64,000 nucleotides of DNA from Deltaproteobacteria bacterium. Its GTDB lineage: Bacteria > Desulfobacterota > Desulfobulbia > Desulfobulbales > SURF-16. Shown piece after piece: positions 695-52,035 of this stretch. The notes under the pieces were generated by a model that saw only the letters and a program-made list of their open reading frames with translations, did no database searches and was not told where the DNA came from. The stretch is from contig JACRCD010000086.1 in NCBI GenBank assembly GCA_016219175.1, forward strand, positions 62,001 to 126,000. The letters run 5' to 3'. Position 1 is the first letter of the stretch. Each line of letters begins with the position of its first letter. The position numbers and the translations under genes were made by a program.

Positions 695-1087
695 TTATTT
701 TATAAATTGCTGGATCTGTCCGTGGAATTCCCTGATATTGATCGGTTTGGTGATGTAGCCTTCGCAGCCGGCCGCCAGCGCCTTTTCACAATCTCCCTTC
801 ATGGCATGCGCCGTCAGGGCAATGATTTTGATGTCCTTGCAATCAGGCATGCTTTTCAGTCTCTGGGTCAGTTCGTAGCCGTCGATCTTGGGCATGGAAA
901 TATCCATCAGAATCAGATCCGGTTTTTCGGCGAGAACCTTGGCCAGGGCATCTTCGCCATCTATGGCTTCACGCAGATGATAATTTTTTTTACCTAGGAT
1001 CTTTATCACCAGTTCCCGGCTGTCCTGATTGTCATCAACCACCAGAATCTTTTTCTTCTCCATGGTATCCGGTTGTTCTTCTTGCAT
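695..1087 (-). CDS. Single-domain response regulator (CheY/DivK-like)
   Basis: This 130-residue protein is essentially one receiver domain: acidic residues in ILVVDDN, phospho-acceptor Asp in LILMDISMPKIDG, Thr in IIALTAH and Lys in YITKPIN. It has no output domain, so it probably acts by protein-protein contact or as a phosphorelay intermediate. The ATG at 1087 follows a good ribosome site (GAGGAAAAC); an internal Met nine residues in is an alternative. It lies 77 bases after the large hybrid kinase gene and 20 bases before the next receiver-kinase, so these three are likely partners. Confidence 0.85.
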   Translation of the reverse strand: MQEEQPDTMEKKKILVVDDNQDSRELVIKILGKKNYHLREAIDGEDALAKVLAEKPDLILMDISMPKIDGYELTQRLKSMPDCKDIKIIALTAHAMKGDCEKALAAGCEGYITKPINIREFHGQIQQFIK

Positions 1088-1164
1088 GTTTTCCTCGGGG
1101 TCAGGGTTTGCTCCTGTTGTGTCGACGCAGTACGATGCGCAAGGGGCGCCGGCCCGCGAAGCAT

Positions 1165-4100
1165 TTATATCTTCTTAAGGGTGTTTTTTACCAGTTCCAG
1201 CAGATCATTTTCCGCCAGCAGACTTTTGTCCAAGGTGGCCCGGACCCGGCCATTCAGTTCCCGGATATCCTCCTCACTCAGCTCGCTGTTGGTAATAAGG
1301 ATAAGCGGCACATTATCGATGTCCTTTTCCGTCTTGATATATTCGATGACATCGAAGCCGTTTTCCTCGGGCATCATGGGATTTAAGACGATCAGATCGG
1401 GTTTGTCCCCTTGAATTGCCTGGATCGCCTCGGTGTTATTAAAGGCCTGGGTGATTCTGTAGCCCGCCTCGTTGAAAAGGTGTCCTAGGATGTCAACCGT
1501 AGCGGCTTCATTGTCAATGATCAGAATGTGCTGAATGCTGGCAAGTTTTTCAAGATTTTTCAGCTTATGCAGCAAGATCTGCTTGTCGATCGGTTTAACC
1601 AGATATTCGGTGGCCCCCAGGCTGAATCCTGTTTTCTTTTCGTCGACAATTGAGACAATGATAACCGGAATATCCTGGGTTTCCGGCTCTTTTTTCAATT
1701 CCCGCAAAACCTCCCAGCCGTCCTTGCCGGGCATCATGATATCCAGGGTGATGGCGGCGGGTTTGATTTCCCTGGCCTTTTCGACCGCGCCTTCTCCGCT
1801 GAGCTGGCCCACGACATGATAATCGCTGCCGATATTTTTTCTGATCAGTTCAATAACCTCCGGGTTGTCATCAATCACCAGAATGGTTTTGCGGACCCTG
1901 CCGCCGCTTTCACCTCCGGCAGGGTCCTCAACACCCGTCATCTCCTGGGGGTTATATTCGCCGATCACGATATTTTCAATGATTTCGCACGCTTTGCAAT
2001 ATTCAATCTTTTCCGGGCATTTAGCCACTTCAACTCCCTTGCAGTGCACTCCGCAGATGAGCCAGCAGCGGTGTTCCTTGTTGCCGTAAGCGGGACAGCT
2101 TGTCTGGCCGCAGCGGGCATATTCCCAGCATTTCACCGGTTTACCGATGTAGCTTGGTTCCTTGAGAAAGAGATCAACGGGCTTGTCGAAATAGACGGCA
2201 AGCTGCTCGGCCATCGCCAGCTCAATAATCGGTTCGCCCAAATTTTCCATGACCTTTCTCTGGGCCGGCAGGGTAAAAAAGAATCTGCTCCCCACGCCGT
2301 ATTCACTCTCCACCCAGATAACCCCCTTATGCAGAACAACCAGACCTCTGGCGATGCTGAGCCCCAGGCCGGTTCCTTCGTACTGACGGCTGGCGGCGAC
2401 ATTGATCTGGGTAAATTTGTCGAAGAGTTTCGCCATATCCTCTTTTTTGATGCCGATGCCGGTGTCTTCCACGCAGATTTCCACAAAAAGAGGGGGAGCG
2501 CCGGGGGCGACACCCAGGGTCGATGGTTTGGCGTGAATGGTAATGCCGCCCTGGGCGGTGAATTTGATGGCATTGCCCACCAGGTTGTTGAAAATCTGCC
2601 GTACCTTGTCTTCGTCCACAAAGACGGCAGGCAGACTGGCGGCGAAATCGAACTGCATGAAGATGTTCTTTGCCTCCATGGCCGGCTGGAAAAAGGCGCT
2701 GACCGACTCGATCATCTCTTTTGTGTCGATTTCCTGAATATCAAGCTCGATTTTTCCTGATTCTATCTTTGACATGTCGAGGATGTCGTTGATCAACTGC
2801 AGGAGATGCTTGGCGTTGTTTTCCACCTTGAGCAGGCTTTTTTCCTGTTCCTCGTTGATCTCGCCGTCGATCTTGTCCAGCAGAAGTTCCGTGTAGCCGA
2901 TGATGGAGTTCATGGGGGTCCGGAGTTCATGGGACATGTTGGCCAGAAAGGCGGATTTTAATCTGTCGAGTTCGCGCAGTTCCCTGATGGCGCGCTCAAG
3001 CATAAGGGTTCTTTCCCGCAGCATGGCGGTCCTGTGGGCCACCTCCATCTCCAGCCCTTTGCTTAAGCTTGAAATTTTTTCATAGACCTTTTCCAGGTTG
3101 TCCAGCATCTGGTTGGTGTGGCGCGCGATGTTGTCCATCACCTCATCGCTGTCGCGCTGTTCGGCCCGGACCTTGAGGTTGCCGTTTGAGGCCTGACTGA
3201 GAATGTCGAGCAGATTTTCCGCCCTGGATTCGAGATATTTCCGCTGCTCCTCTTCTCTTTCCGAGATGCTCTGGATATATCGCAGACGTTCCGCCTCAAG
3301 AACCACTGTAATATCGCGGAATATTTCCACGGCGCCGGTAATGTTGCCCCGGGCGTCCTTCAGGGCGCTGGCGCTGGCCATGACCGGAATCGATTTGCCG
3401 TCTCTGTTGGTCAGGATGGTTCTGATGTCTTGCCCGGGGTTTCCGGAGACAAGGCATTTCTTGATGGGGCAGCTCGCGTCACAGGCTACATCGGTGCAGA
3501 TGTCGCTTTTAAATATCTGCCGGCAGGTCAGTTTTCCCTCGGTTTCCTGTTTGCTGTATCCTGTTATGCGGGCGCAGGATTCGTTCATGAAGGTAACCAC
3601 CATGGCGGTATCCACCATGACCAGGGGGTCGGCAATGGCAACCTTGAGGCTGTTGGCATACTCGATCTGGTCCTTGATGCTTTGCGCCATGAAGTTAAAG
3701 CTGCCGGCCAGGACGCCTATGGAGTCCGCCGATTTGACCGGAACGGATACGGACAGATTGCCCCTGGCCAGTTCCTCGGCCTTGCCGGCCAGCACGGTTA
3801 TCGGTTTGGTCACCAGCCGGGCCAGCAGAAAAAAGATGATGGTGACCAGGATGCCGACCCCGATTATGCTGACAATAATCGTGTGATTGCGCAGGGTGGC
3901 GATGGCCAGATAGGTTGCGTCGGTGGACTGCCTGGTCAAGAGCCCGCCGAGCACCTTGCGGGTGTCGCCGTGGCAGTGATGGCATTCTTTGTCATTATAA
4001 ATACTGTGAATGGTGACCAGATAGTTGACGCCATCCTTCTCCTCTTCGAAATAGCTGATGCGCGGCGGGATGGCGGATTCAAGCAGGGTCTGCAGGGCGC

Positions 4101-4461
4101 TCAAGGTTTCCCTGCTGCCGGTAAAGGTCGAGACAGCGGCGCCGATGCGGCTTTTGTTGGTGGCGAAAATGATCTGTTGGTTAAAATCGCATATCACTAT
4201 TTCCGTGTTTTCCAGTTCATCGCCCATGTCAAGAAGCTGTTTCTCAATGGAGGGACTGTCTCCCACCGACATGGGATGCTTGATGCCGGCATAGGCGAGG
4301 AGTTTCATGTCCTGGGCGTAACTGGTCATCCGCTCCCGGAGATGCTCCCGCTGGTCGGTGATGCTCAGGTAAATGACCCCGCCCATGACGATGGTGACCC
4401 CGATGGTGAGCAGGGTTTCAATGTGCAGGAATTTTCGGATGAAACCATGCGGTCCCGTCAT
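1165..4461 (-). CDS. Hybrid histidine kinase with haem-binding sensor, two-CW domain and two receivers
   Basis: This is a protein of about 1098 residues. In order it has TM1 (about 14-34), an extracytoplasmic sensor with a c-type haem motif CHHCH at about 160-164, TM2 (about 194-215), HAMP, PAS (about 275-390), HisKA (H-box MSHELRTPMNSIIG), HATPase with G boxes, a Cys-rich two-CW segment (CWEYARCG ... CWLICGVHC), and two receiver domains (TILVIDDN and HILIIDNE). The sensor resembles the DUF3365/Tll0287-like fold that carries one haem; that assignment is inference. I prefer the ATG at 4461, one base after the stop of the tetraheme gene; a GTG lies at 4476. The position directly behind six cytochrome/propeller genes suggests it senses the redox state of that conduit. 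Confidence 0.85.
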   Translation of the reverse strand: MTGPHGFIRKFLHIETLLTIGVTIVMGGVIYLSITDQREHLRERMTSYAQDMKLLAYAGIKHPMSVGDSPSIEKQLLDMGDELENTEIVICDFNQQIIFATNKSRIGAAVSTFTGSRETLSALQTLLESAIPPRISYFEEEKDGVNYLVTIHSIYNDKECHHCHGDTRKVLGGLLTRQSTDATYLAIATLRNHTIIVSIIGVGILVTIIFFLLARLVTKPITVLAGKAEELARGNLSVSVPVKSADSIGVLAGSFNFMAQSIKDQIEYANSLKVAIADPLVMVDTAMVVTFMNESCARITGYSKQETEGKLTCRQIFKSDICTDVACDASCPIKKCLVSGNPGQDIRTILTNRDGKSIPVMASASALKDARGNITGAVEIFRDITVVLEAERLRYIQSISEREEEQRKYLESRAENLLDILSQASNGNLKVRAEQRDSDEVMDNIARHTNQMLDNLEKVYEKISSLSKGLEMEVAHRTAMLRERTLMLERAIRELRELDRLKSAFLANMSHELRTPMNSIIGYTELLLDKIDGEINEEQEKSLLKVENNAKHLLQLINDILDMSKIESGKIELDIQEIDTKEMIESVSAFFQPAMEAKNIFMQFDFAASLPAVFVDEDKVRQIFNNLVGNAIKFTAQGGITIHAKPSTLGVAPGAPPLFVEICVEDTGIGIKKEDMAKLFDKFTQINVAASRQYEGTGLGLSIARGLVVLHKGVIWVESEYGVGSRFFFTLPAQRKVMENLGEPIIELAMAEQLAVYFDKPVDLFLKEPSYIGKPVKCWEYARCGQTSCPAYGNKEHRCWLICGVHCKGVEVAKCPEKIEYCKACEIIENIVIGEYNPQEMTGVEDPAGGESGGRVRKTILVIDDNPEVIELIRKNIGSDYHVVGQLSGEGAVEKAREIKPAAITLDIMMPGKDGWEVLRELKKEPETQDIPVIIVSIVDEKKTGFSLGATEYLVKPIDKQILLHKLKNLEKLASIQHILIIDNEAATVDILGHLFNEAGYRITQAFNNTEAIQAIQGDKPDLIVLNPMMPEENGFDVIEYIKTEKDIDNVPLILITNSELSEEDIRELNGRVRATLDKSLLAENDLLELVKNTLKKI

Positions 4462-4462
4462 A

Positions 4463-4963
4463 TCAATGAGCCCCACCGTGGATAAGCGGTTTGAAGCGGA
4501 AGGCCTTGATTCTTTCGCCGGTGTGGCATTGGTCGCAGACCTTTATCGTCGGGGCGCCGGTGATCGATTCGGGCGTTTGATCCCGGATGTGCAACGAGCC
4601 CGGCCCATGACACACTTCGCAGCCTGCGTTTTTCAGGTCAGGGGTCTGATCGGCGCTGACAAACCCTCCTTCTTTCCCATACCCCGTGGTGTGGCAGGAA
4701 TAGCATTTTTTCAGGTCATCCTCGTTTAAGCCTTTTTTGATTCTCTCGATGCTCTCGTAGGAGCGGCTTTTTTTGGCGTAGGTGGTGAAACTGGCGTATT
4801 CCTTTTCGTGGCAGGACTTGCAGGCGGGAGACCCGGCATAAATCGCCTCATCAGGAGAGTCCTGGGACGAACCTGGCTGCGCCATCAGCAGGGCGCAGGT
4901 GAACTGAGCAAACAACAGCAGCAATGCTTTTGATACCAGGCTAAGTGCTCCGGTGTCGTTCAT
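4463..4963 (-). CDS. Tetraheme c-type cytochrome (c554-like)
   Basis: A 166-residue exported protein with a hydrophobic N-terminus (about 9-28) and four CxxCH motifs: CKSCH (48-52), CYSCH (87-91), CEVCH (115-119) and CDQCH (143-147). The spacing and the AGSPACKSCH start of the domain resemble cytochrome c554-type tetraheme proteins. It should be periplasmic, acting as an electron shuttle or terminal partner of the larger cytochromes. The start has a GGAGAGC ribosome site. It lies 33 bases after the 15-haem gene and is followed almost without gap by the haem-containing kinase. Confidence 0.85.
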   Translation of the reverse strand: MNDTGALSLVSKALLLLFAQFTCALLMAQPGSSQDSPDEAIYAGSPACKSCHEKEYASFTTYAKKSRSYESIERIKKGLNEDDLKKCYSCHTTGYGKEGGFVSADQTPDLKNAGCEVCHGPGSLHIRDQTPESITGAPTIKVCDQCHTGERIKAFRFKPLIHGGAH

Positions 4964-4996
4964 GTTTGCTCTCCATGCGATTTTACTGATGCAAAT

Positions 4997-6610
4997 TTAT
5001 ATCTTATCCAGATGGCAGCCGGTACACTGGATGATGCCGGGCATGAGCCGCAACTTGTTTTTCCGCTGCGACCCTTCGGCCGAGGCGGGATATTTGATCA
5101 CCCCTTTTTCATGAGGATTGTGGCAGGTGGCGCAGACTATTTTGCCATTATACAGAGGTAGCTCCACCCCAATCCTATTAATCGATGTGCTGAGCGCCTT
5201 CATGATCTTGTCCGAAGGTTTTACCAGATGACGGCCGCCTGCCGGATGCGCCTCCTTGAAGCCCGGATGGCAGCCGATGCAATATTCATTGGGATCGTCA
5301 ACTATGAATATAACATTATTCGGTCCGAAAATATAGATATCCGGCAGGGAAGCGTGGCAGAAAAGGCATGTTTCCTTCTTGATATGACCTTCCTTGGTCA
5401 GTTGCTGATGAGGGTTCAACCGCCGGTAGGCCTCCTGGAAATGACAGAGAAAACAGAACTGATTGCGGGACAGGCCGCTTCGGCGCAGAAATTTCGGATT
5501 ATCCTTGCCCACGGAATTCAAGGCCAGGGCGCTCTCCTGCAGCGAGGATTGATGGCATGTCTCGCATGATAGTTTGCCATTCTGGAGAGGCATGTCCTCG
5601 GGTATCTTTACATTCTTTGAGGGGATGATGCCCACGGGATGCATTTCCGCCCTGGCAAATTCCGATTTATGGCAGCGATTGCAGATCTCGTTGATGTCGC
5701 CATTGCCCAGCAGACTTGGGTTGCCTTTGGCCGGTGTCCCTTGATGGCAGGCGATACACATGACATTCTTCCAGTGCGGATTGATGCTTCTGGAAAGAGA
5801 GGAAATGCGCAGATACTGGCTGGTGAGAAGGTTTTTGCCTTCACCTTTGCCGTGGGCGACGTGGCAGCTCAGGCAGAATATTTCCCCCTCAACCATTCGG
5901 CTGGAGGAATCAATCCACTGCTGAACGACAGGATCGACAAAAGGATTGAGATCCTTGTAGTGGGCATTTACCAGGGACCAGTGGCAGAATATACACAGGG
6001 CATCGATTTCGTCATCCTTCATCTTGCCCTTGTTTTTCCTTTTTTCAGGGGTGGCGGTATGACAGAAGATGCAGGAGTTTTTATCCTCCGTATGCGGTGA
6101 CAGGCCGACGAAATGATTTTTGTGGCAGGTGGCGCATAAAGCATTGCGCGCTCCCTGGCTCGCCTCTCCCCCCGTGCTTCTGAGGAGACAGCGGTTATAG
6201 GTCTCACTGTGCAGGTAATGACAGGTCAGACAGGTGATCGCGCCCTGGTAAAGACCCTTGCCCAAGGGCAGGGGGAAATCTCCGGTATCCGACGAGGGGA
6301 CCTGCAGCAGTAGGCCGACAGGGTGGAGTTTTGCCCCGGCGTGGCAACCCCGGCAAAGGGTAATGCTGTCATCTCCCTGGATCAGACCTTCCTCGGTCTT
6401 GCCGTCTTGCCCCTGGACATGACATTTGTTGCACTCCATGTCGTGGGGATTTTTGATGGGCTCCAGCACGGGGGCGGAGATGGTGAGTTTGCCGGCCCGC
6501 GGCTTCTGCTCCGCCCGGGAGGTGAGGGATTCAGCCGCGCTTGCCATTGAGCAGGCGGCTGTGACTGTTGCGGCCAGAAAAAAGAGTGATGCCATGCGGA
6601 AACGGCTCAT
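4997..6610 (-). CDS. 15-haem c-type cytochrome (paired CxxCH type)
   Basis: A 537-residue protein starting MSRFRMASLFFL, with a cleavable signal peptide ending near SMASAA. I count 15 CxxCH motifs, many in the doubled-CxxCH style (for example CATCHNPHEKG and CLSCHVAHGKG), typical of large multihaem electron-transfer proteins. The reading frame continues 26 residues further upstream, but the ATG at 6610, one base after the preceding stop, puts the signal peptide at the N-terminus and is preferred. It probably forms part of a periplasmic or extracellular haem wire with the 22-haem protein encoded just upstream. Confidence 0.88.
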   Translation of the reverse strand: MSRFRMASLFFLAATVTAACSMASAAESLTSRAEQKPRAGKLTISAPVLEPIKNPHDMECNKCHVQGQDGKTEEGLIQGDDSITLCRGCHAGAKLHPVGLLLQVPSSDTGDFPLPLGKGLYQGAITCLTCHYLHSETYNRCLLRSTGGEASQGARNALCATCHKNHFVGLSPHTEDKNSCIFCHTATPEKRKNKGKMKDDEIDALCIFCHWSLVNAHYKDLNPFVDPVVQQWIDSSSRMVEGEIFCLSCHVAHGKGEGKNLLTSQYLRISSLSRSINPHWKNVMCIACHQGTPAKGNPSLLGNGDINEICNRCHKSEFARAEMHPVGIIPSKNVKIPEDMPLQNGKLSCETCHQSSLQESALALNSVGKDNPKFLRRSGLSRNQFCFLCHFQEAYRRLNPHQQLTKEGHIKKETCLFCHASLPDIYIFGPNNVIFIVDDPNEYCIGCHPGFKEAHPAGGRHLVKPSDKIMKALSTSINRIGVELPLYNGKIVCATCHNPHEKGVIKYPASAEGSQRKNKLRLMPGIIQCTGCHLDKI

Positions 6611-6611
6611 G

Positions 6612-9359
6612 TTATTTTGCCTCTCTGGTCTTTTGGTTGTCCTCGCTTTGCTGTTCCTGAACAGAATCAGGCGGTTCCGTGTCGCCAACAGGTATCTCCA
6701 CCCCCAGAATAGACTTTTTCTCAGCGGCGTTATGGTAGAATCTGTAGAGCAGCAGCGTTTTCATGCCGTGACAGGCATAACACAGTTCGTTGCGCGCGCC
6801 CTTTCTGAGAAAACTGTCGACAATGGTGCCCTCAATATTTTTTTCCGTTCCGCTGCTTTCTTCGCTTGCGGACCAGAGGTGGGGATCATGGCAGGTTGGG
6901 CAGGTAATTTCCCCGGTGACCGACTTCTTGCCCTCTTTTGTGTAGAGTGGGATGGGGTCCGTTGATGGACTGAGGGAGCGGAGAATGTTGCGGTAGGATT
7001 TGTGGTAGCCGAAGTAAAACTGTTTCGGGTGTATGCCTGAAGCCACGACCTTTTCCTGGCCGGCGTTGTCGCTTGCGTGGCAGCCGTTGCAGGCCTTTTC
7101 CATGAAATCCTGTCCGCCTTCCTCGGACATGGCCGAGTTCCACAAGGCCGTTTCCCCGGAGGCATTATGAACCGCGTGGCAGGGGGCGCATACCGAACCC
7201 TGCCGCGCGGGTTTGCCGCTTGCATTCACCGAGGCGGGAGCCGTCACCCTCATGTCGTGGTCGGTGCCGGATACCAGGCCTTTCCTGGTATGGCATTTTT
7301 CGCACAATAGCGGTTTTTGCAGGTTTGTGTCCCGGAGAAAACTGTTGTCTTCGTTGCCTTCCTCATTGCTTCCCGCGCCTTTTTGGTTGAACCTGGAGTC
7401 CCATCGGTGGGGGTCATGACAGGTATGACACTCCATGAAGGATTTGCCGTCCGGCTGGGCAACAAGCGGCAAGGAAGGGGAACCCGCGACGGCTACCGAT
7501 ACGGGATGCGAGTAGTGGCCCGTGGTCTTTTTTTCCGCAGCGCTGCCGCTTTTGTGGCAGTTGAGGCAGAGCGACGAGGCCGACTTCGCCTCTTTGCCGA
7601 GTTTCCTGGCCCAGAGAAAGGGGGCCGCCCCGTTGTGGGGCACATGGCATGAGGAGCAGACCCCCGACGTTCCTACACTTTGGCCGAGAATATTCATCTC
7701 CTGCGGGGCGGTGACGCCGAGATCGTGGTCCGTGCTCTGCACCAGATATTTTTCAAGATGACATGTTGAGCAGAGGGCGGAGTCCGTGCCGGAAACCTTT
7801 CTGAGAAAACTGCTCTTGGCATCCCCCTCGGTATTTTTTCCGGCCCCTTTCTCTTCGTGTTGCGGGCTCCATTGGTGGGGGTCGTGGCAGGTTCCGCATT
7901 CCATGAGCGGTTTGCCGTTGGGGTCATCAAAGAGCGGCAGGGTGGGCTCGCCTTTCACGGCAACATGAACAGGATGGGTGAAGCGGCCGACGTTTTTTTC
8001 GGTGGCTGGTCCATCTTTCACATGACAGTCCAGGCAGTAGGCGGAAGGGGAGCGGGTCTCTTGGCCATCACCGGCTGCGCGCGCCCAGAGAAAGGGGCCT
8101 GCCGCCTTGTGCGGGACATGGCAGGGGCCGCACACCCCTGACTGCCAGACATTCTGTTTGGCCAGGTTGCTGGCGGCCGGACCCGTAACCTTAAGATCAT
8201 GATCGGTGCCTTCCACCAGGTTCTGGCGGACATGGCAGGAGGCGCAGAGGGTGTCTTTTTTTCCGGCCAGGGCCATGGTTCCCGGTTCGTGCTGGTGGAT
8301 CTTATGGCAGCTGAGGCATTGCATGGAACTGTCCGCCCCGGCAAAAAGCGCCAGGCTGCCGGCGGTTTCCGGCTTGAATTTGCTGAATATAGGATGGTTG
8401 TCCTTTTGCCCCGGCGCGGAGGGCGTGCTTTTTTTGTCCGGATGGCAGACCGTGCAGAGCCGGGAGTTGCTGGCGGGGAAATGCAGGATCTTGTCAACAT
8501 TTCTGTTGGCCCGGCCGGCTGCTTGGGGCGCTGCTTCATGATGATGGAGTTTGTGGCAGCTTATGCACTGGATTGTCTCCTGCCCCCCGGTGAAAACCTT
8601 CACCCCGCCGGTTCGTTCCGCCTTGAGCTGAACCTGGATGGGATGATTCTTGTACGGCATGCCGGTAAGCGATCTGTCGTCGGTCTTGTCTGTGTGGCAG
8701 ACCACGCAGAGCGATGAGTTGCCTGCCGGAAAGACAAGGTTTTTCTTCTCCACGCCGCCATGGGCGGTATGGCAGGTTTCACATATCAGATGTTTGGGGT
8801 CCGTTACGGAGGGGAGGCCTCCCGCGGCAAATATTTTGTCCGGCACGGGCTGTTTGCCGCTGTGCACGGGATGGTTGAGAAGTTGCTTGGCTGCCTGGTC
8901 AACATGGCACAGTTCGCACATCTCGGAATCGCGGCTGGAAACCCTCAGGAAGATCGTCCTTTCAATGCTGGCATCCGTGGGCACGGAGTGGGCGGAATGG
9001 CAGGTGGCGCAGACCATCTTCCCTTCCTGGGACAGGGGAAAGATCTTGGGGATCTTGACTTTGTCGCTGGGCACCATGTTGGTGCGGTGCCGGTCCAGCA
9101 GCCATATCTTCTGCCGGGAATCCTCGGTTGACCCGTCATGGCAGCTCAGGCACATCATTTCCTCCCCGGCCACATCCTTTGTTTCCAAGGGGGCAAGGGC
9201 GGTTCCGCGCCCTTCGACAAACTGATCAATCCAGCGGAAATGACAGATGGCGCACTCCCGCGAGGAGTTCTGGGTCAGATTGCCCGCGGCCATGCCAATC
9301 CCCGGCAGGAAAAAAAGATGCAGAAGAAGAAGTGCCGGAAAGGATTTTATCCGCCGCAT
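6612..9359 (-). CDS. 22-haem c-type cytochrome with tandem 4-haem modules
   Basis: A 915-residue exported protein (signal peptide with hydrophobic core PALLLLHLFFLPG) carrying 22 CxxCH motifs. The C-terminal half is built of about 157-residue repeats beginning near residues 372, 530 and 686. Each has the order CxxCH, VxGTDHDL, CxxCHVPH, FLWAR, CLxCH, CHDPHxW and KGAGxNxEG. Two shorter 2-haem repeats (CxxCHPDK ... NHPI ... CLSCHKIHQHE) precede them. The frame opens with TTG at 9368, directly after the NHL gene's stop, but the ATG at 9359 fits the signal peptide better. It should be the main long-range electron carrier of the operon. No outer-membrane porin gene is seen nearby. Confidence 0.9.
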   Translation of the reverse strand: MRRIKSFPALLLLHLFFLPGIGMAAGNLTQNSSRECAICHFRWIDQFVEGRGTALAPLETKDVAGEEMMCLSCHDGSTEDSRQKIWLLDRHRTNMVPSDKVKIPKIFPLSQEGKMVCATCHSAHSVPTDASIERTIFLRVSSRDSEMCELCHVDQAAKQLLNHPVHSGKQPVPDKIFAAGGLPSVTDPKHLICETCHTAHGGVEKKNLVFPAGNSSLCVVCHTDKTDDRSLTGMPYKNHPIQVQLKAERTGGVKVFTGGQETIQCISCHKLHHHEAAPQAAGRANRNVDKILHFPASNSRLCTVCHPDKKSTPSAPGQKDNHPIFSKFKPETAGSLALFAGADSSMQCLSCHKIHQHEPGTMALAGKKDTLCASCHVRQNLVEGTDHDLKVTGPAASNLAKQNVWQSGVCGPCHVPHKAAGPFLWARAAGDGQETRSPSAYCLDCHVKDGPATEKNVGRFTHPVHVAVKGEPTLPLFDDPNGKPLMECGTCHDPHQWSPQHEEKGAGKNTEGDAKSSFLRKVSGTDSALCSTCHLEKYLVQSTDHDLGVTAPQEMNILGQSVGTSGVCSSCHVPHNGAAPFLWARKLGKEAKSASSLCLNCHKSGSAAEKKTTGHYSHPVSVAVAGSPSLPLVAQPDGKSFMECHTCHDPHRWDSRFNQKGAGSNEEGNEDNSFLRDTNLQKPLLCEKCHTRKGLVSGTDHDMRVTAPASVNASGKPARQGSVCAPCHAVHNASGETALWNSAMSEEGGQDFMEKACNGCHASDNAGQEKVVASGIHPKQFYFGYHKSYRNILRSLSPSTDPIPLYTKEGKKSVTGEITCPTCHDPHLWSASEESSGTEKNIEGTIVDSFLRKGARNELCYACHGMKTLLLYRFYHNAAEKKSILGVEIPVGDTEPPDSVQEQQSEDNQKTREAK

Positions 9360-9368
9360 AGGCCTCAA

Positions 9369-10244
9369 TTACCTCTCTTTTTCCAGAACCAGAAGGCGGT
9401 TGGTGAACATTTCAACCACAAAGAGGTGGTTGCCGGACACCGCCATGCCCACCGGGGTGGTGAATTGTTTCAGGGTGCCGTACTCGTCCGCCACCACGCC
9501 GAGAAATTCGCCTGTGTGGTCAAAAATCTGGACAACTCCCAGATAGCTGTCTGAAACAAAAACCTCACCCGCCTCGTTTACGGCAATACCCTTGGGCCGG
9601 AAAAACTGGCCCAGCTCGATCCCCCAATCGCCGATGAACTGTTTGAAAGTTCCGTCAGGAAGGAGAACCTGTACGCGGGTGTTGATGACTTCCACCACGA
9701 AAATATTGCCTTCCCTGTCAATGTCCAGCAGAAAAGGAAAGCGGAACTCCCCGGGATTGCGCCCCATGCACCCCTGTGCCCATAGTAACTTCCCCTGTTC
9801 ATTAACGGCTAGTATCCGGTGGTTATCATTGTCAACAACAATAAAGGAGTTGTTGTCAGGTGCGAAATGAACATCGGTGGGATCGGCCGGTTTGCCGCCG
9901 GCAGGGGGGGGGAGGGTAAAAAAACGCGGGTTGTCTGCCCCGCCGGGAAACAGGGCAAGCCGGTGATTGCCGGAATCGGCTACCAGCACATCCCCAGCCC
10001 TGTTGACGTCTATCCCCAGGGGTTGGTGGAGAACCCCCGCGCCGCCCAGGGTGAAGAGCGGACCGCCGTGGGAGTTGAAAACCCTGACCAGACCGGCGGT
10101 GCCGTCAAGGATGTAAATCCGCCCCTGATCATCCACCGCCACGTCGCTGGGGAGATCCATGGTTGAGGAGATTTCCAGGACCCGCCGGTATTTGACGGTC
10201 CAGCCAGCGCCGTCGGATGCCAAAAGGGCATCCGGCGGCAGCAT
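9369..10244 (-). CDS. NHL-repeat beta-propeller protein, exported; start uncertain
   Basis: The product has six-bladed-propeller NHL repeats of the pattern DVAVDDQGRIYILDG, GIDVNRAGDVLVADSGNHR and GIAVNEAGEVFVSD through its whole length. NHL proteins of this kind often sit beside multihaem cytochromes and are thought to act as extracytoplasmic scaffolds. The ATG at 10244 falls inside an apparent signal peptide: the same frame is open upstream and reads PGWRIFAALLLAVMLPPDAL, but no ATG, GTG or TTG was found for it. Either an unusual start or a one-base frameshift near 10270-10300 is likely, because another frame supplies an ATG at about 10378. It abuts the 22-haem gene. Confidence 0.75.
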   Translation of the reverse strand: MLPPDALLASDGAGWTVKYRRVLEISSTMDLPSDVAVDDQGRIYILDGTAGLVRVFNSHGGPLFTLGGAGVLHQPLGIDVNRAGDVLVADSGNHRLALFPGGADNPRFFTLPPPAGGKPADPTDVHFAPDNNSFIVVDNDNHRILAVNEQGKLLWAQGCMGRNPGEFRFPFLLDIDREGNIFVVEVINTRVQVLLPDGTFKQFIGDWGIELGQFFRPKGIAVNEAGEVFVSDSYLGVVQIFDHTGEFLGVVADEYGTLKQFTTPVGMAVSGNHLFVVEMFTNRLLVLEKER

Positions 10245-10407
10245 GACCGCGAGCAGAAGAGCAGCAAAGATACGCCATCCGGGATACGGGGCTTTGCGGA
10301 CCTGCCGGTTTCCAGGCGCCGCTGGTCTTGCTGACCCGGCAGCGCCCGGATCCGGCCGGAGGAAAACAGCGGCGAATCCATGTTGCTGTGTTTGACGTGC
10401 ACTTTTA

Positions 10408-11976
10408 TTAATCAGGGGAACGGTCCTCCGACTCGAGTTTTTTCAATTTTTCTTTCTTCATAAGGTCCGGATCGAACATGGTGGGCAGATAGAAGTTCAT
10501 GTATCTGTTGATCATGTCCGCGACCTCGGTTCTGTAGAGGCTTTCCGCCCTGGCCGGGGCATAGCCGACGGTGGCCAGGTCGATATAGGCCTTCTTGCTG
10601 TGGCACTCCGTGCACTGCAGGGGTTTTTTGGAAATGCCTTTATGCAGAACGACCTTGGCCTTCGCCTGCTCCTCCGGGGTAAGGGTGTCTTTTTGCGCCA
10701 TGTACTGCTTGGCGAATTCCTCATCGGCTGACTGGTCGAGCCGCCGGGATTCGTTCATGCTGGCGAAGAGCACCGGGACAAGCCGTGCCCCGTAGACTCC
10801 GTTGTCGCCTTCAATTTTTTCCACCAATTCCTCGGTCTGGTAGTCAAACCACTTGTATTCAACCGTGCCCGTCACGTCTTCGCGGCGCACATGGCAGGTT
10901 TCGCAGGCCATGAAATAGTTATGCATGTTCAGGAAGGAACGGATATCCGGGGCCTTGCCATGGGGATAGGTGCCATGGCATTTCACGCAGATGGGCGGAT
11001 TGGCTATGACGAGTTTCGACGTGTCGTCCGTGTTGTGAAAATGGTGCATTGTTTCCGTCGTTTCCTTTTTCTTGACCAGGCTTTCGAACTCGCTGCTCTT
11101 CGACGCCATGGCCTGGCCCTGAAAACTGGGCGGGAAATAGAGAATTTTTACCAGGAGAAAAGAGACCCCGGCGAAGAAGAAGATGGAGCCGAGCGAGACG
11201 ACCTCCATGAGCCGGCGGTAGGCGTCCTTGCGCGGAGCGAGATGATGGTGCTGGACGTCATGGCCCTCCTCCACGGGAGCGAGTTTGCCCTCCGCGACCA
11301 GCCTTTCATACTGAAGGGGATGTTCTTCCTTCAGGTGGTGGGCGGACATTTTGCCGTCAATCCAGACATTGCTCATGGGGAACTGGCCCGGCTTCCAGTG
11401 CACCGCGTAAAAATGCCAGACAATGATGGCCAGGGTCGCCAGGATTGCCTCCATGCCGTGAATAAGAATGGAGAGGTCAAGGATGAATTTGCTCCAGTAG
11501 GTTTCCGTCCAGAGGAAGATGCCGGTAACGGAGATAATGATGGTTCCTGCTACCAGGGCCCAATATTCAGCCTTTTCCCGGTAGTCGAAGCGGTCGAACT
11601 TGGGCGGTTCGGAACGCAGTCCGAGATAGTAGGCGAGATTCTGGATGCCGCCGATGGCGTCCCGCAGGTTGGGTATCATGTCCTTGATAAAGGATCTGCC
11701 ATCCCGGCTGACACCCAGATAAATGACATGGTACAGGCCGGTAATGATCATGGCCACGCCGGCAATGCGATGGATCAGGCTGCGGTAATAGAAGATGGTC
11801 CGGCCCGCTTCCCCGAATTTGCTGATCCAGTCTTCCGGGATACGCAGCATGTAACCGGTGGCGACGAGGATGACAAAGGTGGCAAAGGTCAGGAAATGCT
11901 GCACCCTTTCCTGTCTGTTGAGACGGGTGATTTCCGTGGGGAGCGTCATATTGGCGTTTGTTGTTTCGTTATTCAT
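10408..11976 (-). CDS. Cytochrome b (FdnI/HydC-like) fused to triheme c domain, CbcL-like
   Basis: A protein of about 522 residues. The N-terminal half has about five membrane helices (near 30-47, 70-90, 138-158, 169-190 and 262-282) with membrane His residues typical of di-haem b-type subunits (LIHRIAG, GLYHVIYL, LIHGMEA, WHFYAVHW). The C-terminal half has three c-haem motifs: CVKCH (330), CETCH (358) and CTECH (455). The layout resembles CbcL-type quinol oxidoreductases that feed extracellular electron transfer. The likely role is menaquinol oxidation with electrons passed to periplasmic haems. ATG 11976 follows the ribosome site AGGGGGTGA, which also contains the upstream gene's stop. Confidence 0.85.
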   Translation of the reverse strand: MNNETTNANMTLPTEITRLNRQERVQHFLTFATFVILVATGYMLRIPEDWISKFGEAGRTIFYYRSLIHRIAGVAMIITGLYHVIYLGVSRDGRSFIKDMIPNLRDAIGGIQNLAYYLGLRSEPPKFDRFDYREKAEYWALVAGTIIISVTGIFLWTETYWSKFILDLSILIHGMEAILATLAIIVWHFYAVHWKPGQFPMSNVWIDGKMSAHHLKEEHPLQYERLVAEGKLAPVEEGHDVQHHHLAPRKDAYRRLMEVVSLGSIFFFAGVSFLLVKILYFPPSFQGQAMASKSSEFESLVKKKETTETMHHFHNTDDTSKLVIANPPICVKCHGTYPHGKAPDIRSFLNMHNYFMACETCHVRREDVTGTVEYKWFDYQTEELVEKIEGDNGVYGARLVPVLFASMNESRRLDQSADEEFAKQYMAQKDTLTPEEQAKAKVVLHKGISKKPLQCTECHSKKAYIDLATVGYAPARAESLYRTEVADMINRYMNFYLPTMFDPDLMKKEKLKKLESEDRSPD

Positions 11977-11981
11977 ACGGA

Positions 11982-13172
11982 TCACCCCCTGTTATTCCGA
12001 CGAGTTTTGACGGTTCTGTAAAAATCCATGAGCTGGTGGACCAGCATGCCGCCGACCACCACCGTAATCAGGAGGGTATAGACATATTTGACGATCATCA
12101 GTATCTTCCAGTGGAAACGCTCCTGTTCGTTCAAGGCCGCAAGATGGGTGTCATCCTCGCTCATCATGGTGATAAAGCTTCTGTTTTTTCTGAGTTCCTC
12201 GATGCCGAGCAGAGGGGATTGTCCCTTGACCATGGCGGAGAGTGTTTCTTCCAGGCCGATGCCGGTTTTATGAATTTTTCCCGAGGCGAAAGAGGCCTTG
12301 GCGTTGGGATGACATATCTGGGTGGCGCCCTGGCTGATGCAGGTCTGCTGCAGATTTTTCGGATGAACCGGGGAGGTTTGATCCTGCAGGGTCTTCATTG
12401 AGTGCACTGAATAATTTGCCGGGGCGTGGCAGCTGATGCAGTCAGGCGCGTTGAGGTCGCCGTACATAACGCCTTTCCAGTGGAAGGTGTCGCGGTAGTT
12501 GTCGGTGGTGACCAGGCCGTGACGTTTCATCTTCTCGCTGTCCTCGTGACAGCGGAGACAGAGCTTCACGGTTTCCATGGCGGTCTTGGATCTGTGCAGC
12601 CGGTGGGTGAAGTGCTGGTAATAGCGGTTGGCCCAGGCTTTTTCCGTATGGCAGCCGATGCATCTGCGCAGGGCGTCACTTGATATCCCTGCCTCCTGGT
12701 CCAGGACTCCGGTGACTGGCTGGAGCAGGGAATTGATGTGACATTCCGTGCAGATGGGCATGTCTTCCTTGAATTTTTTCGGGTTGTCCGCCGGTCCGGT
12801 GCCGTGGATGCTGGCATTCAGTTCGGCATAGAGATTGCCATGGGAGAATTCTTTTTCCGTGGACGGTTCCTTGATGTGGCATTTTGTTGAACAATCAACC
12901 TTCTGGGCATCCACATGGGGGATTACATCAAGTTTTAAGTGACAGTTCCGGCAGAGAACTTTTCCGTGCACGGTGTTTTTGTAGGTGCCGCCATTGACAT
13001 AGAATAAACGCAGCGCCCCGCTCTTTTGATCAATCCTGGCCAGGCCGGGATACTTGTGGCAGACGAGGCAGGCCTCCTCGTCCGCGGCCAAGACCAGCGG
13101 TGGACCGGTCAGAACGTGCAGAGCCATGAAACTCAGCAGGAAACGGATAATCTTGCCGGAATCTGTATTCAT
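11982..13172 (-). CDS. Membrane-anchored multihaem c-type cytochrome (about 8 haem motifs)
   Basis: A protein of about 396 residues with an N-terminal signal (FLLSFMALHVLTG) and a C-terminal membrane helix (about 355-378, YTLLITVVVGG) followed by a basic tail. It has six CxxCH motifs (CLVCH, CRNCH, CTECH, CIGCH, CLRCH, CISCH), one CxxxCH (CSTKCH) and one possible CX8CH (CISQGATQICH). It should sit on the periplasmic face of the inner membrane and take electrons from the neighbouring cytochrome b. The frame extends well upstream, but two adjacent ATGs at 13175 and 13172 directly follow GAGGAGGG, which fixes the start. It is the first gene of the cytochrome operon. Confidence 0.85.
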   Translation of the reverse strand: MNTDSGKIIRFLLSFMALHVLTGPPLVLAADEEACLVCHKYPGLARIDQKSGALRLFYVNGGTYKNTVHGKVLCRNCHLKLDVIPHVDAQKVDCSTKCHIKEPSTEKEFSHGNLYAELNASIHGTGPADNPKKFKEDMPICTECHINSLLQPVTGVLDQEAGISSDALRRCIGCHTEKAWANRYYQHFTHRLHRSKTAMETVKLCLRCHEDSEKMKRHGLVTTDNYRDTFHWKGVMYGDLNAPDCISCHAPANYSVHSMKTLQDQTSPVHPKNLQQTCISQGATQICHPNAKASFASGKIHKTGIGLEETLSAMVKGQSPLLGIEELRKNRSFITMMSEDDTHLAALNEQERFHWKILMIVKYVYTLLITVVVGGMLVHQLMDFYRTVKTRRNNRG

Positions 13173-13198
13173 CATCCCTCCTCTCTCATCACTTTGAG

Positions 13199-13226
13199 TA
13201 ACTATTACGGTTGTATCCATTGTCAA
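13199..13226 (-). promoter_or_regulatory. Candidate sigma-70 promoter for the cytochrome operon
   Basis: On the minus strand a perfect TTGACA (13226-13221) is followed 16 bases later by TAGTTA (13204-13199). This lies 27 bases upstream of the start of the first cytochrome gene, whose ribosome site lies in between. The -10 match is moderate, so the call is tentative. Confidence 0.45.
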
Positions 13227-13748
13227 TTTTTTTGCCGGCAAAGGCAAGAGATTAACAGTGGATAATAAGTGCTTTCCCTTAATCAGGGGCTTCGGTGGCC
13301 AATGGGCTGCGACCTCTTGCGCCATTGACCGGGCTGATATGCATACCACTTGGTGGTGGTTTGTTGGTCGGGAGGAATCTGGGGCGCCGCTTAACAGTGC
13401 CGCTTGGCAATGCGAGGTGGAATTGGTCGACGGATATGAGACGTGTTCTTTCCCTGGCGGCCGGCAAAGGATGGCCGTCACGGGGCAACATTTTTGTCAA
13501 TGTCTTCTGTCCAATCTTCGTCAATTTTGATAGGTATTTTTACCAGGTTCATTTACACACTATGCCGCGAAAAGGGCCTTGTAAATGCGGTAAAATGTCG
13601 CATGCGGCAGAGGCGCCTTTCCTCTTCCTGAAAAGGCAAGGACTCAGCCGTCCTTTTTTCCGTTCCCGATGCCCTGCGTTCAGGCCGGTTTGCGGCCGCT
13701 TGCCCTGCTCTCTTTGCGGTTCTCCGGTTCCGCCTGCTGCCGCTTTCC
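13227..13748. other. 522-base intergenic stretch
   Basis: I see no convincing gene here. Short frames on both strands lack ribosome sites and recognisable domains. The stretch separates the receiver gene ending at 13749 from the cytochrome operon and probably holds a transcription stop for the former and upstream regulatory sequence for the latter. An imperfect hairpin with GCCGC/GCGGC arms lies near 13564-13612. Confidence 0.4.
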
Positions 13749-14201
13749 TTATTTTCTGTCCTTGCCGGCCATCTCCTTGGCCATTTCGGCCTCGTTGGCC
13801 TCGGCAAAGGCTGCCCTCGCCATGACGTTTTCGATTTTCGCCCTGTAGGCCTCCTTGATGCGCTGCATCAAGATTTCGATGTCAGCCGGCTTATGCAGAT
13901 AATCAAAGACCCCAAGCCTTTTCGCCTCTTCGGCGTCTTTTTCCGTGCCGTGGCCGGTAAGGATTATCACCTGCATGTGAGGGTATCTTTTTTTTATCCG
14001 GCGCAGGACCTCCAGGCCGTCGATTCCCGGCATTTTCAGGTCGAGAACCATCACGTCCGGCTCATTGTCATCGACAAATTCCAGGGCCTGTTCCCCGCCG
14101 AATACCGTATCGCTTTTCATGTCCCGCATGCCGAGACGCTCGGACAATGTTTCCACGAAGGCTTCTTCATCATCAACGAGCAGGACTTTCATTTCTTTCA
14201 T
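13749..14201 (-). CDS. Response regulator with C-terminal helical tail
   Basis: A 150-residue protein. The receiver domain (about 4-118) is complete: VLLVDDE, phospho-Asp in VMVLDLKMPGIDG, Thr in VIILTGHG and Lys in YLHKPADI. The charged, helical tail includes NVMARAAFAEANEAEMAKEM, which echoes the AATFAEAG motif in the two proteins encoded upstream. ATG 14201 follows AAGGGGAAACC; the frame is open 30 residues further upstream. It is the last gene of the set behind the sigma-54 promoter at 15.4 kb. Confidence 0.82.
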   Translation of the reverse strand: MKEMKVLLVDDEEAFVETLSERLGMRDMKSDTVFGGEQALEFVDDNEPDVMVLDLKMPGIDGLEVLRRIKKRYPHMQVIILTGHGTEKDAEEAKRLGVFDYLHKPADIEILMQRIKEAYRAKIENVMARAAFAEANEAEMAKEMAGKDRK

Positions 14202-20677: not shown

Positions 20678-21463
20678 TTACCGAATATTTACGCCTATGT
20701 TTTGTTTGGCATAACGCCCCTCGCGGTCCTTCATCTCAACCTTCACCACGAAGGTATCACCGATATAACACCGTTTAAAGGTGTATTTAAAAGACATGCC
20801 GGAAGATATCGTTTGATTGTTAATAGACCATCTGACCCAGGTAATATCGCCATTTGAGCCCGAGGCATCAAGAATCAAGGTGCCTCCCGGCCTGAGGTTA
20901 TAGACCAACTCCTCGGGTTCGAGGACGATAATGATGTTGTTGGCATCCTGAGGATCACTCGCCGAGCCTTCAACCGGATTTGTTACTACGGCGTTTATCG
21001 TCGGGTCCCATTCCAGGGCATGGCATTTGTAACATTGTCCGCCGCTGTAATCCGGACCACCATAGTTTTCATGATGAAAAGCCCCGATTTTATTTCTTAC
21101 GTTCACGGTAATGTCCCAGCCCGCTTCCTCTGCTCCTTCAGGCGTTGCGCGGGCAAGATATCCCGCGGCGTCCCGGTAAAGGATTGGCGTGTGACAAGTG
21201 AGAAAACACGTGTTGCCATCCATGGGGATAAGTGCAAATCCCTGAGACTCGGACCCCCCCAGTTTATGGCAGGTTAGACATCCTGTTCCCGAAATCTCGG
21301 CATAAATATGGTGAGTATCAGGTATCACGGGATAGGAGTGACACGTTTCGCAACTCTCCTTATAGTTGTCCGCTCCTTCGGAAGCGAAGGTGGAGCCGGT
21401 AAACCCCAAAATGGGTAATGTGAGCATGGCGGCCATGGTGATAGTCATTTTCTGCTTTTTCAT
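20678..21463 (-). CDS. Tetraheme cytochrome with C-terminal beta (PKD-like) domain
   Basis: A 261-residue exported protein (signal peptide to about residue 27). Haem motifs are CETCH, CLTCH and CYKCH plus a CxxxCH, CFLTCH. The last 90 residues (LVYNLRPGGTLILDASGSNG ... VVKVEMKDREGRYAKQNIGV) resemble a PKD/immunoglobulin-like beta sandwich, suggesting attachment to a surface or partner. The start has the ribosome site GGGGAGACT. It is a single-gene unit followed by a terminator. Confidence 0.8.
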   Translation of the reverse strand: MKKQKMTITMAAMLTLPILGFTGSTFASEGADNYKESCETCHSYPVIPDTHHIYAEISGTGCLTCHKLGGSESQGFALIPMDGNTCFLTCHTPILYRDAAGYLARATPEGAEEAGWDITVNVRNKIGAFHHENYGGPDYSGGQCYKCHALEWDPTINAVVTNPVEGSASDPQDANNIIIVLEPEELVYNLRPGGTLILDASGSNGDITWVRWSINNQTISSGMSFKYTFKRCYIGDTFVVKVEMKDREGRYAKQNIGVNIR

Positions 21464-32234: not shown

Positions 32235-33134
32235 TTATTCCAATTCCTGTTTGGCTTGCACGGTCGCCTTGAAGCCCGCCACCAGATCCAGCAGTTCGGA
32301 GGTTATGGTGGACTGCCGTTGTATCCGGTAGACTCCTTTCAGTTCCTCAATATGTTCCTCGATGTTTTTTTCCGCATTCTGCAGGGAGCGCAGGCGGCTG
32401 GCCTGCTCGCTGGCCAGCGACTCCGCCTGGGCCCTGAACAGGGTGGCAAAGAGATGCTGGCGGATCAGCCCGGAAAAAAGGGTTTCAGGGGGGATGCGGA
32501 AGGAGGGCAGGGATCTGCCCTCCCATTTTTTTCTGCCGAGTTGCCGCAGGTGGTCGTTGTCGATGGGCAGCAGGACTTGATGCTGGGGTTGGGCCGCGTT
32601 CAGTTTGTCGAATTTATTGAAGAAGATATCGACCTGGAAAATTTTCTGCTCCCGCAGCCAGCGTTCCACGCTGAGCAGGATCTGATAGACATTGGCGTTA
32701 ATGCCGCTGACCGAGCCCGGCACCCAGAATCGTTCGTCCGTCCTGAAGCCGCCGCTCTCAAGCCGGGAAGCGATCCGCGCCCCGATAACCAGTAATCCGA
32801 GAGAGGAAAAATCAGTCACCGGCATATCGGCCACGCTCTGCTTGACAAAGTCGGCGAGCCGTTCGTTGAACCTGCCGCAGAGCCCCTGGTCCGAGCCGAA
32901 GACGATCAGCCCTCTGGGCAGCTGTCCCGTGGTCTGGACGGGACGGGGCAGGGCGGTTTCCTTCAGGGCGGTCCGCAGGCCGAGTTCGATAACCTCCACA
33001 AAGGTGGAAAGCGAGGCAAGGGCCTGTTCATACTGGCGGATGTTGACCGCCGCCAGGGTTTTCATGCTTTTGACGATGCCCTGCAGCTTGGTGGTGGCGG
33101 TAATCCGTCTATCCAGATCCTGGAGGGTATCCAT
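32235..33134 (-). CDS. atpG: N-ATPase subunit gamma
   Basis: A 299-residue rotor-stalk subunit, starting [20 protein letters not shown]. The N-terminal coiled helix (VKSMKTLAAVNIRQYEQAL), central GSDQGLCGRFNERL and C-terminal helix (RQSTITSELLDLVAGFKA) are characteristic. The ATG at 33134 overlaps the atpA stop; an upstream in-frame Met exists but lies inside atpA. It is the last gene of the N-ATPase operon, and its stop is convergent with the diguanylate cyclase gene. Confidence 0.93.
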   Translation of the reverse strand: MDTLQDLDRRITATTKLQGIVKSMKTLAAVNIRQYEQALASLSTFVEVIELGLRTALKETALPRPVQTTGQLPRGLIVFGSDQGLCGRFNERLADFVKQSVADMPVTDFSSLGLLVIGARIASRLESGGFRTDERFWVPGSVSGINANVYQILLSVERWLREQKIFQVDIFFNKFDKLNAAQPQHQVLLPIDNDHLRQLGRKKWEGRSLPSFRIPPETLFSGLIRQHLFATLFRAQAESLASEQASRLRSLQNAEKNIEEHIEELKGVYRIQRQSTITSELLDLVAGFKATVQAKQELE

Positions 33135-34657
33135 TATGGGCCGCCCTTTGCAAAAAGGCGGGCCAGGGCGGTTTCGCACAGGTCCAGCAGGGTTTCTCGA
33201 TCATGGGCGTCAAGCTTGCCGCCCCGGTGTATCTTTGCGCAGATATGGGGGAGGTCCCGGAGCACAGCCTCTTTTATCACCATTTCGGCCTCCTTTATTT
33301 TCTTCACCTCGATGCGGTCAAGCAGCCCCGCGGTCAGGGCCAGCATGACCGCGACCTGCTCGTATTCCTTTAAGGAGGAATACCTGTCCTGCCGCAGTGC
33401 CTCCCTGACCCTTTTGCCCCGCTCGATGGCTTTCTGGGTGTTGTCGTCCAGCCGGGTGGCGAAACGGGCAAAGGTCTCCAGTTCTTCAAACTGGGCATAG
33501 GAAAGGCGAAGCTGGCCGACGAGGTCCCGGTAGGCTTCTTTCTGCGCCTTGCCGCCCACCCTGGAAACCGATTTGCCCACATCCACCGCCGGCAGCATGC
33601 CCTTGGCAAAGAGTTCCGGGGAAAGATAGATCTGGCCGTCCGTGATGGAAATAATGTTGGTCGGGATGTAGGCCGAGAGGTTTTGCGCCTCTGTTTCAAC
33701 GATGGGCAGGGCGGTCATGCTGCCGCCGCCCAGGTCGAGGCGCAGATGGGTCGATCTTTCCAGCAGGCGCGAATGGATATAGAAGATGTCGCCGGGATAG
33801 GCCTCCCGGCCGGGGGAGCGCTCCAGCAGCAGGGATATCTCGCGGTAAGCGCGGGCATGCCGGGTCAGATCGTCATAGACGATCAGGACATCCCGGCCCT
33901 GGCGCATAAAATATTCGCCGATGGAGGTCGCGGCGTAGGGGGTGATATACTGCAGACCAGGGGCGTCCTGGCCGCCGGCCACCACAACCACGGTGTAGGG
34001 CATGGCCCCGTGCTCCCGCAGTTCGTGCAGGACCTTGGCCACGGCGGATTCACGCTGGCCGATGGCGGCATAGATGCAGATGACGTTTTTGTCCCGCTGG
34101 TTGACGATGGCATCAAGGGCGATGGAGGTCTTGCCGGTCTGGCGGTCGCCGAGGATCAGTTCCCTTTGCCCCTGGCCGATGGGGATAAGGGCGTCGATCA
34201 CCTTGATGCCGGTGGCCAGGGGGGCGGCCACCGGCAGCCGCTCCATGATGGCCGGCGCCGGATTTTCCAGGGGGCTGCGCGGCTGGTCCGGGATGCTGCC
34301 CCTTTCGTCAAGGGGCTTGCCGGTGGCGTCAATCACCCGGCCGAGCAGGGCTTCGCCCACAACGATATCGGCCACCCGGCCCAAACGCTTTACCTCATGG
34401 CCGGCTTTAAGGCTGTAGCCGGAGCCGAGCAGAATAATACCGGCCTTGCCGGGCTCAAGGCCGGCCACGATGCCAAGGGTGCCGTCCTCCGCCCTCACCA
34501 GTTCCTCGGAGGTGACCCCGGCCAGACCGCTGGCCATGGCAACCGGTCCGGTAACGGCAATGATCCTGCCCACATCCTCCGCGGTCAGGGAGAATTCGTG
34601 GGACGCCAGGGCGCTCGCAAAGGCGTTTCTGGTTTTAGCCAGTGATGTTTTCAGCAT
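33134..34657 (-). CDS. atpA: N-ATPase subunit alpha
   Basis: A 507-residue non-catalytic nucleotide-binding subunit with P-loop GDRQTGKT, the segment [24 protein letters not shown] and [22 protein letters not shown]. It forms the alpha3beta3 head with AtpD. Gene order after atpF and before atpG is that of N-ATPase operons. A 118-base gap with two inverted repeats separates it from atpF, unusual for this compact operon. Confidence 0.95.
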
Positions 34658-34672
34658 ATGGGCATGATCAGC

Positions 34673-50370: not shown

Positions 50371-52035
<1,665 letters not shown>

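Follow-up and report, generated by a model that had tools for sequence, protein, structure and literature searches.

What path for electrons is encoded by six adjacent genes that place some fifty c-type haem motifs beside a cytochrome b domain and a beta-propeller? The genes, here called the cassette, lie in a 64,000-nucleotide stretch of DNA (the window; contig JACRCD010000086.1, positions 62,001 to 126,000, of GenBank assembly GCA_016219175.1) from a sulfur-cycling Deltaproteobacteria bacterium of the order Desulfobulbales, whose genome comprises 4.2 Mb in 97 contigs. With moderate confidence, we read the cassette as an inner-membrane, Cbc-type quinol:cytochrome c oxidoreductase that carries its own periplasmic haem wire and sends electrons outward. 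The directly established facts from which this reading starts are the gene content, the haem motif counts, the conserved gene order, the co-divergence of the genes, the linked porins of some relatives and an MtrAB-type gene pair elsewhere in the genome.

Gene content and haem motifs of the cassette

Six successive genes occupy positions 4463-13175 of the minus strand, in the order c8, bc3, NHL, c22, c15 and c4 (Table 1), with intergenic gaps of 5, 163, 9, 1 and 33 bases. A seventh gene, encoding a hybrid histidine kinase, overlaps c4 by 14 bases; the first-pass annotation of this DNA had placed the six genes correctly and left the kinase outside the cluster. In-frame CXXCH motifs number 6, 3, 0, 22, 15 and 4 from c8 to c4 (50 altogether). 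At the DNA level the motif is matched 51 times on the coding strand and not once in the reversed reading or on the opposite strand, and since 300 first-order Markov sequences contain a mean of 0.26 matches (maximum 3), a chance origin is excluded. The two remaining c8 sites, one CX3CH and one CX8CH, have cysteines and a histidine that are invariant in 11 aligned homologues, the first being CX3CH in all 11 and the second CX4CH in three (L084, L086 and L032) and CX8CH otherwise. This invariance makes a total of 52 haems reasonable, and the annotated figure of about 52 motifs (8+3+22+15+4) can be retained as 50 CXXCH plus the two non-canonical c8 sites.

The membrane core consists of c8 and bc3. 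The c8 gene starts at an ATG at 13175 or at 13172, and its profile finds no match in the PDB at E values up to 0.1. bc3 is probably a menaquinol oxidoreductase subunit, judging from its b domain, which matches PF01292 (E 8.9e-15) and in which H27, H69, H83, H173 and H188 are invariant in six aligned sequences (the most distant 28% identical); its score against the formate dehydrogenase gamma subunit family (61.5 bits) is below the cut-off of 115.85. The earlier description of a CbcL-like quinol oxidoreductase at the start of the path therefore stands in part: a b-c protein of quinol oxidoreductase type does lie near the start, but three c haems and a separate anchored octahaem protein make the arrangement look more like a CbcA plus CbcB pair.

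The propeller, annotated in the middle of the cluster, is indeed encoded by the third of the six genes. Its frame continues upstream through a signal-peptide-like stretch (window 10245-10407) without ATG, GTG or TTG, for which an assembly error, a frameshift or an unusual start are possible explanations; the aligned NHL reading frames of relatives have longer N-termini, mostly with a hydrophobic stretch. Searches of the PDB at E 0.01 with c22 and c15 profiles give 15 and 5 matches, respectively, to parts of various multihaem proteins, including one entry of another name. In 12 aligned c15 sequences the C-terminal part is conserved, while the N-terminal part varies in haem number. Among the loci examined, c4 lies directly behind c15 only in those of the same genus, and the four genus members compared share seven conserved histidines for four haems, which may leave one or more haems without a second histidine. 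No lipobox is present in the window's c8, c22, c15 or c4 (both a strict and a loose pattern were used for c22 and c15). The kinase occupies the same position, at 78% identity, in the three same-genus loci examined.

Signals that might delimit an operon are less distinct. A sigma-54 consensus scan of the window returns zero sites, and over positions 900-14000 there are 10 sigma-70-like sites, versus 7.0 (standard deviation 2.5) in shuffled sequences, and 25 terminator-like sites, versus 16.4 (standard deviation 4.1), neither of which clearly marks the operon ends.

Table 1. Coordinates (window numbering) and sequence features of the cassette and flanking elements
Feature	Position	Strand	Description
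Upstream of c8	13176..13748		without assigned gene; presumed promoter region
c8	11982..13175	-	CbcA-like cytochrome with signal peptide and eight c-haem sites, anchored in the membrane by a single C-terminal transmembrane helix
bc3	10408..11976	-	N-terminal cytochrome b561-type domain (about four helices), fifth hydrophobic stretch, C-terminal three-haem c domain
NHL beta-propeller	9369..10244	-	no haem; propeller by sequence
c22	6612..9359	-	22 CXXCH, arranged mostly as a chain of pairs; signal peptide of Sec type (by eye)
c15	4997..6610	-	15 CXXCH; Sec-type signal peptide by eye
c4	4463..4963	-	four CXXCH; cytochrome c554-type
Hybrid histidine kinase	1165..4476	-	HAMP, PAS, HisKA, HATPase, two receiver stretches; one CHHCH before HAMP

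Conservation of the gene order

Among 80 loci on named contigs (L numbers), 18 count as cassettes (L068-L082, L084, L086 and L087); the remaining 62 go no further than a b domain, c8-like proteins or the two together, NHL and c22 not being found at the thresholds used. These loci and those of the genome survey described below (G numbers) lie partly on the same contigs (e.g. L076, L077, L082 and L075), and the two sets of counts are not additive. The order c8, bc3, NHL, c22 is present in 16 of the 18 cassettes, and the two exceptions are cut by contig ends (L070 begins inside bc3 and L079 stops inside NHL); the synteny search proposed with the first-pass annotation thus finds a recurring core order. 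A c15 homologue follows c22 in 13 of the 18, precedes c8 in two (L084 and L086) and is represented by a fragment at the start of L087. The giant c22-type protein has 18 to 22 CXXCH motifs where seen, including 20 in the cut copy of L072, which continues past the contig edge. Pairwise identities of c8, bc3, NHL and c22 across 20 cassettes correlate with r of 0.925-0.979, as expected of a unit that would be inherited together, with a contribution from shared species history, some of the 20 being closely related.

The set also extends beyond the order. A search of 395 genomes with c8 gives matches in 55 at 1e-15, many of which cover a short segment only, and in 24 at 1e-50, including 18 outside the order; the regions studied were those of 17 of the 18 (not G289) plus G144. 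In the 17 genomes with strong c8 matches, the fetched stretch also carries an NHL gene in 13 cases and encodes a c22-type protein in 8, these counts being limited by short contigs. Complete copies of the giant protein outside the order have 16 to 31 CXXCH motifs, and the L247 protein, whose reading frame exceeds the fetched stretch, has at least 33, giving a range of 16 to at least 33 haems across the loci examined. Many of these genomes encode the b domain and the three-haem domain as separate genes, and the full set is present in L081, a locus labelled 'Thermodesulfobacteriales', which is another order. Separately, L085 and L088-L147, with labels including Gemmatimonadota, Calditrichaeota, Armatimonadota and others, have c8-like and b561-type genes together in many contigs; NHL or a giant cytochrome was not found in them at the thresholds used.

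Several features of the surrounding DNA are recorded here. An alternate F1F0 ATPase is encoded on the minus strand in two groups, with gamma, alpha and F0 B at 32235-35543 and beta at 50371-52005, all four subunits scoring below their NCBIfam cut-offs (two only slightly). By eye, a likely a-subunit lies at 48665-49339 on the same strand, and the roughly 13 kb separating the groups hold a kinase and several small gene pairs resembling toxin-antitoxin modules. About 19 kb, at least partly regulators, separate the gamma gene from c8; in the same-genus locus L031 (3245-6350), c8 has an ATP synthase alpha gene about 1.6 kb upstream. At 20678-21463, minus strand, a 261-residue reading frame matches PF09699 with 20.5 bits (cut-off 20.6), and the 21 kb bin holds three haem-motif DNA matches.

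Direction of electron flow and the way out

In the path proposed here, the b domain of bc3 would oxidise menaquinol via two b haems and pass electrons to the three c haems of bc3 and to the membrane-anchored octahaem c8. They would then move onto the very long c22, which the NHL propeller may clamp and which is proposed to act as a long periplasmic wire, and onward, probably in this order, via the 15-haem c15 and the 4-haem c4. Together c22 and c15 hold 37 haems, which could span much of the periplasmic width and might so make small shuttles such as PpcA dispensable. Exit would be through outer-membrane conduits encoded elsewhere in the genome, or beside the cassette in some relatives, to which the wire is presumed to dock. 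The kinase, which has a single haem motif and overlaps c4, may sense the redox state, and its region before HAMP weakly matches the sensor chain 3b42 (E 0.094).

Evidence on the direction comes from Desulfurivibrio alkaliphilus AHT2, whose cassette (L033, genome G024) lies at ∼2,446-2,460 kb. A study of iron-oxide respiration with sulfide in D. alkaliphilus reports that 13 of 46 multihaem genes are upregulated on ferrihydrite, including CbcL and OmcA homologues, and a figure legend mentions cytochromes of a porin-cytochrome cluster (PMC12545173). A CbcL-like fusion from the same order (not Geobacter CbcL), used as a query against G024, matches only the bc3 and c8 of the cassette, which makes bc3 the likeliest, though unconfirmed, candidate for the upregulated CbcL homologue; with bc3 itself as query, a lone b-type frame at 1.64 Mb is matched as well (E 1.6e-7). 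Against the window's genome, the CbcL-like fusion picks up the cassette bc3 and c8 and one weak decahaem match.

A machine running inward, in which an extracellular or periplasmic donor (FeS, sulfide, sulfur or a partner cell) would feed the giant cytochromes and the b domain would reduce menaquinone, is conceivable and in our estimate rather unlikely. It would suit a genome that encodes DsrA (581 bits, versus a family cut-off of 392.85) and a set of carriers that includes Desulfocapsa and Desulfurivibrio records. Both genera include members that oxidise sulfur compounds or disproportionate them. Such metabolism is in part documented for them (PMC12545173, PMC3739170), for Seep-SRB2 a reverse operation of CbcBA has been predicted (PMC10553843), and the two sets of 16-/26-haem, propeller and peptidyl-prolyl isomerase (PPIase) genes in the window's genome are of a type hypothesised to serve an external electron donor (PMC5539420). 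On the other hand, the rise of the D. alkaliphilus CbcL homologue with ferrihydrite as acceptor (PMC12545173) favours the outward direction, if bc3 is the same gene.

The outward reading also has to account for the way out. Open reading frames, motif counts and domain searches reveal no porin gene among the six genes of the window, as had been annotated, and a route to the outside unlike that of porin-cytochrome complexes had been surmised from this. The surmise finds no support in the relatives. L234 and L236 have near the cassette a decahaem gene and a 611-613-residue protein with MtrB/PioB matches (2.4e-9 and 1.4e-14, respectively). Beside the cassettes of L033, L084 and L086 lie a lipoprotein-like gene with 8-9 haems and a barrel-like protein of 440-442 residues whose only strong hydrophobic stretch is a signal peptide (zero Pfam matches for those of L084 and L086), and L068, L069 and L251 have a 674-704-residue protein with a terminal W, likewise with zero Pfam matches; both types may be barrels, to judge from their form. 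In the window's own genome, contig C8 carries a 10-haem gene with an MtrB/PioB protein (E 6e-117) encoded behind it, and on contig C54 a 9-haem lipoprotein-like gene adjoins a weak MtrB/PioB match (1.1e-6). Given the linked porins of relatives and the MtrAB-type pair elsewhere in the genome, the missing porin need not imply a new route. For the same reason we consider it improbable that the cassette never reaches the outer membrane and that c22 and c15 store electrons in the periplasm or feed soluble sulfur or nitrogen reductases. That arrangement would fit a set that lacks a porin, the absence of a lipobox from the window's c8, c22, c15 and c4, and a c4 whose seven conserved histidines allow a haem lacking a second one, but it does not predict that several relatives have a porin or barrel-like gene adjoining the cassette.

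Several observations weigh against an outward path through the cassette. Its distribution is patchy: in a survey of 257 genomes of the order, the bc3 profile matches 59 at 1e-40, and a near full-length fused bc3 (E below 1e-130) is present in 20, the others having b domains, split copies or different b-c fusions. The fusion occurs in 4 of 6 genomes of the window's genus and in 0 of 16 genomes in other genera of the family; one of the 20 (G132) has an internal stop, and L074, which appears to be this contig, gives two frames. (Fused and split copies of the b-c module occur together in G032, G129, G130, G132, G196, G208 and G101.) A barrel-like gene is found nearby, by a heuristic plus inspection, in only 4 of the 18 named cassettes (L068, L069, L084 and L086), several of the others being short contigs. 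Barrels from two relatives give zero matches at E 0.001 in the window's genome, which makes the outer-membrane partner here a guess. A strict lipobox is present in few named relatives (c15 in 2/15 and c22 in 1/17, one of them from the same genus), in which c15 and c22 may therefore be membrane-anchored. Finally, AlphaFold models lend no structural help, as that of c8 (11-row alignment) is unusable with a mean predicted local distance difference test score (pLDDT) of 47.3, and that of c22 (13-row alignment) is, with a mean pLDDT of 38.8, too poor for filament contacts.

That the 22-haem protein is exported to form extracellular filaments like OmcS or OmcE is very improbable. Its profile matches 9yuq_N (E 1.7e-11) and 7tfs_A (E 4.4e-10; we take 7tfs to be the OmcE filament) weakly and in short stretches, each best over ∼50 residues, which points that way, but the best matched stretch spans about one CXXCH pair, the haem number varies widely in the family, and the c22 model offers no basis on which to seek contacts.

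Relation to known systems and biological meaning

A literature search covering chiefly titles and abstracts (without subscription papers, supplements and figures) found no published name or description of the six-gene order, in keeping with the earlier remark that the set was not recognisable by name. None of CbcBA, CbcL and the 16-/26-haem set fits as a whole by the features compared below, while the core, the fusion and the propeller with its giant cytochromes each resemble one of them.

The core is closest to CbcBA, part of CbcABCDE (Cbc5) of Geobacter, as compared by description and domain only. CbcA is a membrane-bound multihaem cytochrome c with seven haems, encoded with the PF01292 cytochrome b CbcB (PMC7726332, PMC10470525), and the cassette's c8, with its C-terminal helix, likewise adjoins a PF01292 protein. 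The cassette differs in its eight haem sites, in the fusion of b to a three-haem c domain, and in its partners, which are NHL and the 22-, 15- and 4-haem proteins instead of CbcC (11 haems), CbcD (monohaem) and CbcE; a further membrane protein such as CbcE is not seen among the six genes. CbcL is a single protein with six transmembrane helices, two b haems and nine c haems (PMC9129911). bc3 similarly joins b and c domains in one polypeptide, for which menaquinol oxidation is presumed, but it has three CXXCH and about five hydrophobic stretches, and it is accompanied by a separate octahaem protein and giant cytochromes.

The propeller recalls the operon of 16-haem and 26-haem cytochromes, a six-bladed propeller and a PPIase described by Skennerton et al. 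in 2017 (PMC5539420), in which a propeller also adjoins two giant cytochromes in Desulfobacterota. The four-gene core of that operon includes the PPIase and lacks the b cytochrome and the anchored octahaem protein, whereas the cassette shows the opposite, and the haem counts differ; the two 26-haem proteins of the window's genome share only 22-23% identity with c22. These belong to two sets of 26-haem, 16-haem, NHL-like, PPIase and 5-haem genes on contigs C36 and C91 (L189 and L187), a like set being described from Seep-SRB1 and D. alkaliphilus (PMC5539420). In L247 the cassette is preceded upstream by 25- and 16-haem genes.

NHL genes occur among multihaem genes tied to iron reduction in Dethiobacter alkaliphilus, for which NHL and TPR were suggested to serve complex assembly (PMC10376724), and NHL-repeat genes among those of Desulfovibrio ferrophilus (PMC9769857). 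The association of NHL with multihaem cytochromes is therefore not new. The Dethiobacter account names a CymA homologue and not a b-c fusion, the D. ferrophilus legend names no b cytochrome, and the gene order of the cassette was not found in the accessible text of either. The word NHL was not found in the corresponding parts of a survey of porin-cytochrome (Pcc) systems or of the Seep-SRB study, or in one pair of papers on Geobacter and Desulfobacterota. With Pcc and MtrAB systems the cassette shares multihaem electron transfer in the envelope, and in some relatives a physical linkage; the window's cassette differs in having no porin inside the set.

A broader proposal, which we advance only tentatively, is that the cassette represents a self-contained module of several lineages of one phylum, in which a quinol-oxidising b-c core and an NHL-clamped, periplasm-spanning giant cytochrome would replace the diffusing periplasmic cytochromes of Geobacter. 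Its outer-membrane conduits would be interchangeable (MtrAB-type, two other barrel-like types, or none nearby), and the haem range of the giant protein would look as if the length of the wire had been adjusted. The transfer of electrons from the quinone pool across the periplasm to an outer-membrane conduit is little known outside Geobacter and Shewanella, and a cassette of a quinol enzyme and a giant cytochrome, found beside a barrel-like gene in the cultured D. alkaliphilus, provides a defined and testable gene set for it. Desulfosediminicola flagellatus and Desulforhopalus sp. IMCC35007 are further carriers in culture. For sulfide oxidation coupled to iron oxides, a recently described process, the cassette is a candidate inner half, and, if the module proposal is true, the cassette in D. 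alkaliphilus would be the inner half of that path.

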